Source: Sphingobacteriales bacterium (GTDB taxonomy: Bacteria > Bacteroidota > Bacteroidia > Chitinophagales > LD1). Taken from it: a stretch of DNA of 64,000 nucleotides. This document shows, in pieces, positions 21,986 through 25,411 of this stretch. Both the position numbers and the translations under genes were made by a program. Below the pieces are notes generated by a model. The model did not search any database, was not told the DNA's origin, and saw only the letters and a list, made by a program, of their open reading frames with translations. Within the stretch, counting starts at the first letter, position 1. Every line of letters starts with the position of its first letter. The stretch is taken from NCBI GenBank assembly GCA_018262795.1, contig JADFDM010000006.1, positions 62,001 to 126,000 of the forward strand, given 5' to 3'.

Positions 21986-22105
21986 GAAAAAAGTGAGGGA
22001 CACGAAGCTATTCAAAAATGGGGTGGGGTATTTTGTCGGCTGCCAGCTATCTGCTTCCTGTTTGTCTGTTTTATTACCATCACACCCACCGTTTGCAATC
22101 AGCAG

Positions 22106-22267
22106 CCATCGGTGAAAATATACGATGCCCTTGCGCAGCAGGTGCTACCATTACCAAAAAGCAATTCCCCATCAGCCATTGACATTTCTTCATTGGTTGC
22201 CGGTGTTTATTTCATCGGTGTATTTGACGGGAATAAACAAAGTCGCGGAAAATTTGTGAAGAAATAG
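22106..22267 (+). pseudogene. Orphan C-terminal T9SS type A sorting domain fragment
   Basis: The plus strand encodes SVKIYDALAQQVLPL, then IDISSLVAGVYFIGVFDG and a final GKFVKK, before a stop at 22267. This is the pattern of the second half of a T9SS type A sorting domain (V-x-I-Y-D, D-[IL]-S-x-L-x-x-G-x-Y). No cargo domain or YPNP motif precedes it; the upstream part of the frame overlaps the start of the dihydroorotase-like gene on the other strand. It is probably a remnant of a deleted secreted-protein gene. Its end overlaps the CsoR-like gene on the opposite strand. Confidence 0.65.
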
Positions 22268-22525
22268 GAAAGAGAAAACAGAATAATGTGCGAATCGGAT
22301 AATCTTTTCCCGAATGTCGGCAAGGGTTTCCGCCTGTTTGTCGCATAGTTTATCGCCCTCTAAAAGCCGATTGATGTGCACGATTAAATCTTTGCGAAGG
22401 GCTTCGTCAAAAAATTTGTAAATAATTTTTTGAATGCTCCCTTCCACTGCTCTCAACTGACAATAAACATCGTAAGGGTCGCGCTTTTCAATAATCATAT
22501 TATCTGCTTTATGCAGATGCGCCAT
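22190..22525 (-). CDS. CsoR/RcnR-like (DUF156) metal-sensing repressor homologue, atypical
   Basis: From the ATG at 22525 the product has 111 residues, but the frame continues upstream to a stop at 22550-22552 and adds IKNQLHCT. Read with this part the pattern (QLHCTMAHLHKADNMI, EKRDPYDVYCQLRAVEG, then KIIYKFFDEALRKDLIVHI) follows the three-helix DUF156 repressors that sense copper, nickel or aldehydes. A CTG at 22537 or ATT at 22549 might be the real start. The usual Cys before the D-V-x-x-Q-L segment is replaced by Pro/Tyr. The last 30 residues are read from DNA antisense to the T9SS remnant and look like an acquired tail. Regulation target unknown. Confidence 0.5.
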   Translation of the reverse strand: MAHLHKADNMIIEKRDPYDVYCQLRAVEGSIQKIIYKFFDEALRKDLIVHINRLLEGDKLCDKQAETLADIREKIIRFAHYSVFSFLFLHKFSATLFIPVKYTDEINTGNQ

Positions 22526-22917
22526 AGTGCAATGCAGTTGATTTTTAATTTACCGATATAGCTTACTTTCCGAGTACATAAGCCCAATGGGGGAGTTTTG
22601 TTAAACTTCATAGATTAAAAGAAAGATCAATCCAGAAAAAAACAAGAGGAAAAGAAAGGAATTTTTGGCGCAAAATGATTCTTTACACCACTGCCCTTCA
22701 AAAGGAAAAAGGGGGAGTAATCTGTTTGCTGGCTTTATTTGAGCAATGAGGATAATGGGGGAATGATTGAGCGTGTAACAGTTATTAGTTAAGCGTGCAA
22801 TCCGCAATCCAAAATCCGCAATCCGCAATCCGCAATTTATTACAATCCGCAATTTGGCATAATTCGCAATTAAAAATTTGCAATCAAATGAGCCTCTACC
22901 AAAAGCTAAAAGCAAGC
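22526..22917. other. Gene-free stretch before the repeat array
   Basis: About 390 bases with no convincing gene. It holds the probable 5' part of the CsoR-like frame (to 22549), an A-rich region, and the ATCCGCA heptamer block listed separately. The open frame on the minus strand here is largely produced by the heptamer repeats. Confidence 0.6.
22795..22858. repeat. Heptamer repeats (ATCCGCA)
   Basis: The heptamer ATCCGCA occurs in several adjacent copies, such as AATCCGCAATCCGCAATCC near 22822, plus imperfect copies to about 22858. It is a simple tandem repeat, not coding. Confidence 0.8.
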
Positions 22918-23418
22918 GAATCCGTAGGATTCAAATGTTTATAGCTAACAAATAGTGCCAAGGTGCGACCCCAAAGGGGTCGGATTCTTTCCTCTCACAT
23001 AGCTATAATCATACGACCCCTTCGGGGTCAAACATTTCCTATAAACATGCAACCACTTCGGGCTAAAAACAAAACCGAATCCGTAGGATTCAAATGTTTA
23101 TAGCTAACAAATAGTGCCAAGGTGCGACCCCGAAGGGGTCGGATTCTTTCTCCTCACATAGCTATAATCATCCGACCCCCTCGGGGTCAAACATTTTCTA
23201 TAAACACGCAACCCCTTCGGGCTAAAAACAAAACCGAATCCGTAGGATTCAAATGTTTATAGCTAACAAATAGCGCAACAAGGTGCGACCCCGAAGGGGT
23301 CGGATATTTATAACTGCCGATTTATCCTATAAACATACAAACCCTTCGGGGTCGAATAAAATTGGTAACCTTGTTTCTATAAACATAAAATCCCTTCGGA
23401 ATTAAAAACAAACCAATT
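22918..23418. repeat. Tandem array of 159-bp palindrome-rich (REP-like) repeats
   Basis: GAATCCGTAGGATTC, a perfect palindrome with 7-base arms, recurs at 22918, 23077 and 23236, exactly 159 bases apart. Units one and two are nearly identical; unit three diverges from about 23306 and runs up to the transposase start. Each unit also holds GACCCCGAAGGGGTC-like and GACCCCTTCGGGGTC-like hairpins and the pair TGTTTATAG/CTATAAACA. In unit one GACCCCAAAGGGGTC keeps its arms although the loop changed. Such hairpin clusters beside a Y1 transposase recall REP/BIME elements mobilised by RAYT proteins. Confidence 0.85.
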
Positions 23419-23880
23419 ATGTCCGGCACATTTTCGCAAATTTATATTTAGGTGGTATGTGCAGTTAAAGGCAGAAAAAGCCTCATCCATCCATCATGGG
23501 AAGAAGAACTATATAAATACATAACCGGCATTGTTCGCAATAAAGAACAAAAAATGCTGGCTATAAATGGAATGCCTGATCATATTCATTTCCTGATTGG
23601 CATGAAACCTTCCTGTTGTTTATCCGACTTGGTTCGTGAAATAAAAAAATCAACAAACGATTTTATCAAAGAGAAAAAACTCTCAAAATTTAAATTTCAA
23701 TGGCAAGAAGGTTATGGTGCATTTTCATACAGTCATTCTAATTTAGACCAGGTGATTAAATACATTGCAAGTCAAAAAGAACATCATAAAAACAGAACTT
23801 TCAAAGAGGAATATGTAAAGTTTCTGCAAAAATTTGAAATAGAGTTCAAGGAAGAATACTTGTTTGAATTTTATGAATAA
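23419..23880 (+). pseudogene. Y1 transposase (IS200-like / REP-associated), interrupted by an in-frame TAG
   Basis: A single-strand (HUH) transposase of about 153 codons. From the ATG at 23419 the frame reads MSGTFSQIYI, meets TAG at 23449-23451, then continues VVCAVKGRKSL to the normal end. Relatives have the sequence IYI-[QH]-x-V-F-A-V-K-G at this point, so a CAG-to-TAG change is likely. The HUH motif is DHIHFLIG, and the nucleophile Tyr is in FSYSHSNLDQVIKYIASQ, probably the Tyr of IKYI. A GTG directly after the stop (23452) could restart translation and lose only the first strand. The 159-bp hairpin array lies directly upstream; no matching hairpin is seen downstream. Confidence 0.8.
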
Positions 23881-24097
23881 TCGAGAGACCAACTCTAGTA
23901 TATGAGATAGGCTTTTTAAAACACGGTCGCCCTGAAAATAAGGCGGGGTTATTTATCGCTTGTCAGCTAAGCCGCTTTGATATATCAAAATGCCTAACAA
24001 AGATTAGATGGGAGAGATTTGGAGGTTTGAAAGTATGCGCATGGACAAACTTATAAGGTTTGGAAGGAAGAGTTAAACAGCAACCATTTTCTAAAGC

Positions 24098-25411
24098 CTA
24101 TGCAACTTTACTTCCTCCCGAAGCATTCTCTAATGTATGTTCCTTCTGAATTTTCGTATTGAAATACACCAATGAAAAGCCGGTGAGTACAATGCCCAGC
24201 ACACTGGTAATGTATAAAGCGTCAATGAAAAACTTGCCGTAACTCATTTGCGACTGCCCGAAATTCTTAAAAAGCAACACTAAGATGCTTCCTAAATACC
24301 CAAAGGAATCAGCTATGTAAATTAGAAAGCCCACATTGGCAGGTTTGCGAGTGGAGGCGATCAACCTTTCAAAAAACACAATATTGAAAGGGATATAACC
24401 GAGATAAAGCCCCAGCCCGTTCAGTATCATCCAGTTTACCGCGCTGATAGTACCGTAGGAGTATTCCAAAGTTGCAATGCCGGTAATAAGAAAACCGACT
24501 ATCACCATGTAGTGGTTAATCCGCAGTGCTTTGAAGTTGTTTCGCACCACCATCACCAAACTCATCAACACAAGAATAGCGATAGAGATAGGCGTTTCAG
24601 TAGCGGTAAAGATAGAGGCATCATTAAAGCCGAGTTCTTTCCAGATGTCGGCCACAAAATTGTCGCGAAAGTCGCGAATAACTGAGAGCAGAGCATAGGT
24701 AACGACCAGCACTATAATTCCCGGCAGAAAATGTGTTACAAATTCCTTGCGCTCTTTTTGGCTCATCGGTAGCCTTTCGCAACGGTGTAGTTTATCGTCT
24801 GCCGAAGGGGGAGGAATTTGTTCCAACAGAAACACAAAGATCAGCATCGGTATTAAGAAGATAGCCCCGGTAGCTGCCGGCATCCAATATTCATTTACGT
24901 GCATATCCATCATCAGCCATTTCCCTACAGACTTTACAAAACCCGAAGAGAAAATAAAACTGACAGCCAGTACGCTTCCCATAAACTCAGTGGTGTGCCT
25001 TCCTTCAATATAAGAGAACACGAGTCCCCACACCATGCCCAGCGGAATACCGTTCAAGAACATGAAAAAAATATTGATTGGCGCAGGGGTGAAAGCAAAA
25101 AACACCAGCATCAGCCCCGCAGTAGCAATCAGCACTATAATGCCTAAGGCGCGGTGGTGATGTTTGATTTCGCTCACATAGCGGATGCCGAGAAACTTGC
25201 TGAGGGTATAGCCGATAAGCTGGGCAATGACGAACAGAATTTTGAGATCAACACCCGCAAACATAAGCCCGTCAAAGGTGGCGGCTGTGTAGGGCTTTCG
25301 AAAAGCATACATACAACTATAAGTGCAAAAAGTAGCGAGGGCAGCAAAAATTGCTACCACTGCCGGTGGGCTTTTTTCGAGTTTCGCTTTCAGCGGAGTA
25401 GGAAGTTGCAT
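24098..25411 (-). CDS. DUF5690 family MFS-like membrane transporter
   Basis: A 437-residue inner-membrane protein with about 11-12 hydrophobic segments. The N-terminal TYSCMYAFRKPYTAATFDGL and FVIAQLIGYTLSKFLGIR match the Bacteroidota DUF5690 family, a relative of the major facilitator superfamily. The central cytoplasmic loop (around residues 200-225) is charged. The phosphonatase-like hydrolase starts about 45 bases upstream in the same direction, so they probably form one transcript and one pathway. The substrate is unknown; a phosphonate or a related phospho-compound is a guess from the neighbour. Confidence 0.85.
   Translation of the reverse strand: MQLPTPLKAKLEKSPPAVVAIFAALATFCTYSCMYAFRKPYTAATFDGLMFAGVDLKILFVIAQLIGYTLSKFLGIRYVSEIKHHHRALGIIVLIATAGLMLVFFAFTPAPINIFFMFLNGIPLGMVWGLVFSYIEGRHTTEFMGSVLAVSFIFSSGFVKSVGKWLMMDMHVNEYWMPAATGAIFLIPMLIFVFLLEQIPPPSADDKLHRCERLPMSQKERKEFVTHFLPGIIVLVVTYALLSVIRDFRDNFVADIWKELGFNDASIFTATETPISIAILVLMSLVMVVRNNFKALRINHYMVIVGFLITGIATLEYSYGTISAVNWMILNGLGLYLGYIPFNIVFFERLIASTRKPANVGFLIYIADSFGYLGSILVLLFKNFGQSQMSYGKFFIDALYITSVLGIVLTGFSLVYFNTKIQKEHTLENASGGSKVA

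Follow-up and report, generated by a model that had tools for sequence, protein, structure and literature searches.

The palindrome-rich tandem array that lies upstream of a Y1 transposase gene in the window (the whole stretch of 64,000 nucleotides that was analysed) is, in our opinion, quite probably a gene-proximal cluster of a REP/BIME-like family of non-autonomous repeats, which belongs to a TnpAY1 transposase of subclass 1.2, is read by it and probably is spread by it. What we observe is a tag at a fixed spacing from a hairpin whose stem covaries. These modules are associated with the gene, their tags follow the transposase tree, copies are dispersed, and one array is present in some Flavobacterium relatives and absent from others. 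Recognition of the tag-hairpin by subclass-1.2 TnpA is strongly suggested by these sequence patterns, and from the enzyme family we would infer that the same protein also cleaves and mobilises the repeats.

TRF places a tandem array at 22917-23305, with a period of 159, 2.4 copies and a 95% match. The initial annotation spoke of three strict 159-base units. Indeed the period is 159, and unit 1 aligns to unit 2 without gaps at 94% identity, but the third unit keeps only about 70 bp of the sequence, after which bases are gained and the copies diverge. Past the array two further, diverged modules, whose tags are at 23327 and 23377, occupy the stretch before the ATG (23419), the last of them standing close to the gene. 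A module consists of a 6-bp hairpin with a 3-nt loop and, exactly 12 nt in front of it, a tag that is CTATAAACAT or a variant. In a full 159-bp unit there are four elements, namely the hairpin GAATCC-GTA-GGATTC and then TGTTTATAG; the hairpin CGACCCC-AAA/GAA-GGGGTCG; CTATAATCA and then the hairpin GACCCC-TTC/CTC-GGGGTC; and CTATAAACA with a degenerate hairpin. The palindromes that the initial annotation named are present in the array (GAATCCGTAGGATTC and CGACCCC-AAA/GAA-GGGGTCG three times each, GACCCC-TTC/CTC-GGGGTC twice), with TGTTTATAG there three times and CTATAAACA four times, and its remark about conserved arms with differing loops is accurate, as copies of the named hairpins differ in their loops only.

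Copies were sought with R1, a covariance model of the modules, which favours CTATAAA tags and whose E-values are rough. Unit 1 begins with a minus-strand tagged module at 22918-22944 (R1 match C16:84918-84947), in which the hairpin GAATCCGTAGGATTC at 22918-22932 precedes the tag TGTTTATAG at 22936-22944, so that on the minus strand it reads as CTATAAACATTT and then the hairpin. The central untagged hairpin CGACCCC-AAA-GGGGTCG (22966-22982) comes next, followed on the plus strand by the tagged module CTATAATCATAC with GACCCC-TTC-GGGGTC (23003-23029; R1 match C16:85000-85029) and by an extra module in the same orientation, recognised in the sequence, with tag CTATAAACA and a degenerate hairpin (23039-23065). 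Unit 2 has the same order: hairpin GAATCCGTAGGATTC with TGTTTATAG on the minus strand (23077-23103; R1 match), the central untagged hairpin CGACCCC-GAA-GGGGTCG (23125-23141), CTATAATCATCC with GACCCC-CTC-GGGGTC on the plus strand (23162-23188; R1 match) and the extra plus-strand module with a degenerate hairpin, again recognised in the sequence (23198-23224). The partial unit 3 consists of the minus-strand module of hairpin GAATCCGTAGGATTC and TGTTTATAG (23236-23262; R1 match) and of the hairpin CGACCCC-GAA-GGGGTCG, here followed by a TTATAAATA-like tag on the minus strand (23286-23316; L020:1369-1398:-; R1 match C16:85287-85316). Beyond the array, on the plus strand, lie a module with tag CTATAAACATAC and an imperfect hairpin (23327-23353) and the gene-nearest module, in which tag CTATAAACATAA is joined to AATCCC-TTC-GGAATT with five of six pairs (23377-23403; R1 match C16:85374-85403, and seen in the sequence); it ends 15 nt before the ATG.

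Perfect hairpins with a stem of at least 5 number eight in the 531 bp of the array region; 118 other 531-bp windows of the 64 kb have 0.51 on average and three at most, and mononucleotide shuffles 0.4 on average (maximum five, n=500). DNA folding of one stretch per unit gave z-scores of -5.7, -6.0 and -5.4. A chance origin of the array and its modules is rejected by this hairpin density together with the register and permuted-tag controls described below. An identity as a known Rfam RNA was likewise rejected, as 22000-24200 has no match at the gathering threshold. Somewhat further upstream, at 22797-22836, there is a 7-bp tandem repeat, GCAATCC, in 5.7 copies; this heptanucleotide repeat is itself dispersed, with BLAST matches at many places in the same genome and in relatives (G014, G015, G016 and others).

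The frame 23419-23880 on the plus strand, of 153 codons, is a Pfam Y1_Tnp protein with a TAG at codon 11 (23449-23451). Because of this in-frame TAG the gene-finder ORF, the longest that is left, is truncated: it starts with GTG at 23452, runs to 23880 on the same strand and encodes 142 aa without the first conserved residues. The window transposase may accordingly be inactive, and what the window holds may be a relic system or one in decay. Read through, the protein carries DHIH, WQ and YIASQKEHH, and its H55, H57, W95, Q96, Y115 and Q119 are invariant in 20 aligned sequences, H122 and H123 being nearly so. These correspond to the motifs published for subclass 1.2 (DH[IV]H, WQ, YIKNQKEHH, with a length near 148 aa), a subclass mostly restricted to Cyanobacteria and Bacteroidetes and of low copy number (Quentin et al. 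2018, PMC6006769). Judged by sequence, the window protein is an IS200-like TnpAY1 of subclass 1.2. It passes the IS200 equivalog NF033573 with 63 bits (67.9 for the read-through protein; cut-off 55) and fails NCBIfam REP_Tyr_transpos with 31.6 bits (33.1 read through; cut-off 80), and a profile of 15 relatives finds the ISDra2 transposase as best match (8e-12) and IS608 next, with the RAYT entry 4ER8 absent among the best eight matches listed. In 80 relatives from named genomes YxxxQxxHH is present in 77, WQ in 79 and DH[IV]H in 68, and YxxxNP in none. The assignment to RAYT or TnpAREP class 2 is therefore rejected, given the missing YxxxNP and a REP_Tyr_transpos score of 33.1 against 80 bits. 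The length of 153 codons and the two gene matches in the genome, the second (E<=1e-15) being 36-37% identical, agree with the short proteins in few divergent copies of subclass 1.2. The window gene itself is single-copy in its genome, without near-identical copies of a whole element.

The 80 relatives come from one scan of named genomes, are 54-81% identical and belong mostly to Bacteroidota and Ignavibacteria records. All five close orthologues from the family (71-79% identity) have CTATAAAC and then a hairpin nearby. When 8-mers within 600 bp of the 80 genes were ranked de novo, the top ranks were parts of the tag and hairpin: TTTCTATA is found near 41 of the 80 genes (4.1 expected from DNA 1.5-3 kb away), and CTATAAAC near 29 (1.8 expected). 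Among the hairpins 3' of near tags, 88 of 99 have their loop centre 19 or 19.5 nt from the first base of CTATAAA. The unbiased test of this register used every distinct CTATAAA tag that lies within 1 kb (140 in all), whether or not a paired stem follows it; register 19 pairs 68% of the six-pair cells, and nine other registers 20-31%. Permuting the tag in 40 ways gave on average 47 occurrences, 87 at most, with pairing of 27% on average and 35% at most; the 49 CTATAAA tags found far away were 35% paired. Allowing at most one tag mismatch and requiring at least 5/6 pairs at register 19, there are 191 modules within 1 kb in 60 of the 80 loci. Among the controls, nine other registers yield 0-6 modules, DNA far away yields 15 in five loci, and 60 permuted tags yield 3.5 on average (maximum 11). 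Twenty loci are free of modules by this criterion and 14 by a looser one. Beside distant Y1 relatives modules were found in none of 16 loci. In alignment A3, which holds 88 modules after 10 of 98 candidate rows were dropped as probable chance matches, all six pairs covary, 92.2% being paired with 133 double changes against 34.7 after shuffling, a table that is biased because its rows were chosen for pairing.

The letters of the tag are not the same everywhere. Among 28 loci without CTATAAA, 18 have a one-letter variant at the same register (CTATAATAAT, CTATAATCTT, CTACAAACAG, CTATAGACAT and others). We compared the tags with a tree of 92 proteins (80 named and 12 from family loci), 89 of them with a tag, in which many branches are weak. 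Tag position 7 (A/T) changes three times on this tree versus 19.0 times when shuffled (minimum 15 of 300), position 10 (T/G) six times versus 18.1 (minimum 14) and position 4 (T/C) nine times versus 15.1 (minimum 11), for tags that were picked by their closeness to CTATAAA (at most two mismatches), 14 of the 89 resting on a single module. By these sequence comparisons the tag letters track the TnpA tree. Linked inheritance could account for some of this agreement; the flanks are otherwise widely different while the tags persist.

Neighbouring modules no more than 150 nt apart are arranged in a characteristic way. In 31 inverted pairs the tags point inwards, and in 22 of these the distance from tag to tag is 57-69 nt. 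In 33 pairs they point outwards at scattered spacing, and 32 pairs share one orientation, of which 24 are 20-29 nt apart. Inner-tag pairs with a spacer of 50-75 nt number 29, in 19 of 85 loci examined, and 27 of these 29 have a hairpin in the spacer (4.2% in shuffles), which lies near the middle of the spacer and has CGACYCC on its left arm in 26 of 27 cases. All 19 loci with such composites fall within a single clade of 35 rows in the tree (support 99). Units 1 and 2 of the window are three-hairpin composites of this kind, with a 58-nt spacer, thus the 159-bp period is a composite plus one extra module. In genome G005 four dispersed composites of a similar kind agree in sequence between points just outside the first and the last hairpin and diverge beyond them, and there are further dispersed families in G005 and G001. 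Some tag-hairpin pairs lie within longer inverted repeats, CAATGTCATTAAGTTAAG / CTTAACTTAATGACATTG or variants, like a REP pair with a MITE-like wrap; such wrapped pairs are at L002:1471-1594 (C13:248383-248506 of the window's genome) and at L160-L162 and L172 of G001. Another locus of the window's genome, L010 (C13:225169-228192), has a direct duplication with 313-bp spacing of a tagged pair and apparently part of a small reading frame.

A first pattern search of the window's genome gave 14 matches versus seven in the reversed control, and since this pattern is too weak alone it was replaced by the fixed-register test and R1. All R1 counts are lower bounds, taken from the best 150 candidates per genome (family and named-locus genomes) or the best 37 (phylum genomes). 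The window's genome has at least 20 R1 matches, contigs C1 and C13 included. Two of its contigs end at or beside modules, C1 (144252-144281 of 144354) and C5 (1-112), hence the assembly probably breaks in the repeats and the copy number may be underestimated. Among 30 family genomes, the 15 with a strong TnpA match (E<1e-45) have at least 1-64 R1 matches each and the other 15 have 0-6, and copies per Mb are higher in the strong-TnpA group (p = 7e-5). Among 198 genomes of the phylum, at least one R1 match is found in 45 of 59 with TnpA (E<=1e-45) versus 21 of 139 of the rest, p = 1.7e-16, a value that ignores kinship and treats non-independent genomes as data points, with a threshold of 1e-45 chosen after the matches were seen. 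The association is not strict. Fourteen of the 59 genomes with the gene have no R1 match, and 11 of the 139 without strong TnpA have at least three, four of these with a weaker TnpA (1e-35 to 1e-44). G116 (at least 18 R1 matches) and G225 (at least 19) have no TnpA match at E<=1e-20; they may hold orphaned families, or else be evidence against a strict pairing of repeat and gene.

The 16 genomes of named loci have at least 1-88 R1 matches, five from Flavobacterium records at least 3, 6, 51, 69 and 76, and [Flexibacter] sp. ATCC 35103 (G040, in a genus group that contains F. hungaricum) at least 88. Dispersed copies in the genome and in relatives are what the initial annotation would have taken as support for REP behaviour. 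Proteobacterial REPs typically number hundreds per genome, and the module counts here are below that. In the fetched stretches 26 of 47 modules lie outside all stop-to-stop frames of at least 80 codons, a figure without a control set, so that no intergenic bias is shown. The dispersed tag is that of the resident TnpA in G038, G039, G040 and G043 (one dispersed stretch), and partly in G033. In G042, with four TnpA matches, CTATAAATAT is on eight of 11 modules in 10 sampled regions and is absent from both TnpA flanks that were read; in G041 too the dispersed tag is unlike the resident one. This agreement is a soft test, because R1 favours CTATAAA and the stretches were taken from its best matches.

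Arrays too are common beside these genes. In 28 of the 80 loci a tandem array with a period of at least 40 overlaps the gene or lies no more than 1.5 kb from it, and in 17 of the 28 it includes at least two tags, so the tandem multi-hairpin array, put forward initially as a distinct arrangement, is not peculiar to the strain of the window. Examples have periods of 387 bp (99% match), 220 bp and 136 bp, the first two beside TnpA genes, and a second array in the window's genome has a period of 206. Tandem growth could be explained by recombination. In G040, of the Flavobacterium group, about 690 bp of units stand between two stretches that are conserved in relatives. Among 11 relatives at this site the array is absent in five, which have 44-60 nt instead and left flanks 84-86% identical. 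One (L203) has it, one ends at a contig edge, and in the remaining four its place is taken by 201-867 nt of other sequence. Gain in one lineage is the simplest reading of this comparison, its direction being unproven. The site (G040:C14:486599-488199) is apparently an insertion-prone spot; in L204 and L211, which represent it in Flavobacterium relatives, the other sequence appears to be small protein genes. An empty site for the window array was not found in the 30 family genomes, in which the matches to the flanking genes (dihydroorotase-like and DUF5690) and to the transposase were spread over separate contigs or places.

The system most resembles the RAYT/TnpAREP REPtrons of E. coli, Pseudomonas and Stenotrophomonas, in which a Y1 gene is likewise flanked by 5'-tagged hairpins, with inverted pairs and more dispersed copies than gene copies. 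The initial annotation proposed a REPtron, and the dispersed copies in the genome, in relatives and in the phylum, together with the stem covariation, bear this out; however, the protein is not a RAYT and the repeats are not GTAG-tagged. RAYTs are class 2 with YxxxNP and their REPs carry GTAG (or GTGG) at the hairpin foot, whereas here a subclass-1.2 protein with YxxxQxxHH accompanies a CTATAAAYAT-like tag placed 12 nt before the stem. In comparison with RAYT REPs and BIMEs there are also three-hairpin composites and fewer copies, and the dispersed 5'-tagged palindromes, also in inverted pairs, are shared. Both the anatomy and the evolution of the modules support a repeat family that co-evolves with subclass-1.2 TnpA and works as REP/BIME does with RAYT, with a different transposase subclass, tag and geometry. 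Published subclass 1.2 agrees in motifs, length of about 148 aa, Bacteroidetes and low copy number, yet it is described as generally without typical IS200 terminal structures, with 'no' in the REP column of Table 1 (PMC6006769), and here most relatives examined have a dedicated repeat; the 191 modules in 60 of 80 loci contradict that entry. The 'atypical secondary structures' of TnpAY1 subclass 2.6 and class 3 (PMC6006769) are also hairpins without GTAG, and those of subclass 2.6 are also mostly in Bacteroidetes with copies elsewhere in the genome, but they belong to another transposase subclass, and the main-text sections of that paper give no tag or spacing rule that we could find. The CGTC-tagged palindromic repeats (PMC3733652) are small, dispersed and tagged, and occur in Bacteroidetes among other phyla; going by their description there rather than by sequence, they differ in having CGTC at one end and no associated transposase. 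In IS608 and ISDra2 (IS200/IS605), whose catalytic domain is related by sequence, a hairpin is recognised along with a guide sequence on its 5' side (PMC8266576), to which we liken the tag; the window system is not a multi-copy near-identical element, and neither of the two adjacent ORFs scanned in Pfam is tnpB. Among the matches listed in the PMC literature (titles and starts of abstracts) we found no description of CTATAAA-tagged or subclass-1.2 repeats.

This relationship raises the question whether the modules are simply subterminal LE/RE hairpins of an ordinary IS200/IS605-type IS, with the extra copies as solo ends and decay products. The IS200 equivalog score (63 against 55) and the closest solved relatives speak for it, as do hairpins 14-40 nt from the gene in several loci, in a few of them on both sides. 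We nevertheless regard it as unlikely, since two gene copies in the window's genome, the second so divergent, face many modules, in G068 one gene match faces at least 37, and modules are found in both orientations and in composite units free of any gene. We think it more improbable still that some unrelated transposase moves the repeats as MITE-like elements, which would then merely cluster near this gene. The outer inverted repeats of the copy at C13:248413 and of several G001 copies, and the genomes with repeats and no TnpA match, would fit such elements, but those ends are missing from the other copies that were aligned or read, and spacing and tag are tied to subclass-1.2 TnpA across 80 loci.

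Hairpins could also be selected at the RNA level, as terminators or attenuators, or because they stabilise mRNA and at the same time repress the transposase, and not be mobile at all. In many loci hairpins do adjoin the gene on its upstream and its downstream side, and REP hairpins are known to affect expression (PMC6006769). Against this are the lack of an Rfam match in 22000-24200, a conserved tag that keeps its distance from the hairpin in either orientation, the varying presence of the array between relatives and the copies throughout genomes, and we give this explanation as little credence as that of the MITE-like elements.

For the repeat family read by TnpA we imagine the following mechanism. 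The recognition unit would be the tag (CTATAAAYAT in the clade of the window, other letters elsewhere) 12 nt 5' of the 6-bp hairpin with its 3-nt loop. Two inverted units with tags inwards about 60 nt apart, together with the central untagged hairpin, would make a composite of about 110-125 bp that occurs dispersed and in tandem. In a single-stranded state, for instance on the lagging-strand template, a TnpA dimer might bind the hairpin, the tag serving as guide and/or cleavage site like the guide tetranucleotides of IS200/IS605 TnpA. TnpA would then excise or copy the composite and re-insert it elsewhere, and local tandem growth would follow from repeated insertion or from recombination.

In proteobacteria REP repeats influence both gene expression and the structure of the genome; the best-known cases involve class-2 TnpAREP and GTAG. 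As the same tag-hairpin code flanks many relatives and is scattered in genomes, a class reported to be partnerless seems to own repeats. We lean slightly towards the wider idea that this transposase subclass runs its own repeat families across Bacteroidota by a clade-dependent code (about 10 tag letters, 12 nt, a stem free to vary), with the symmetric three-hairpin unit of one clade as a mobile single-strand substrate, and that this would represent an independent REP-like domestication from IS200 with a tag-guided choice of target that could be reprogrammed. Besides class 2 there would then be a second lineage, IS200-like and outside the phylum of the proteobacteria, that has tag-hairpin repeats of its own, and one could ask whether domestication with repeats happened more than once. 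Tag variants and transposase variants form matched natural series, which offers a direct route to the protein residues that read the tag. The family is also a likely origin for the intergenic hairpins that run to dozens in some genomes of Flavobacterium and related bacteria.

A second, distant Y1 gene is present at C15:236213-236626 of the window's genome (L005, L042), at G008:C108:4785-5219 and at G025:C178:4681-5091. In all three genomes it has on both sides another perfect palindrome, CCCACGGTTTAAACCGTGGG (one copy mismatched), of which further copies are at C11:171413, C12:254289 and C15:232689 of the window's genome and also in G007.
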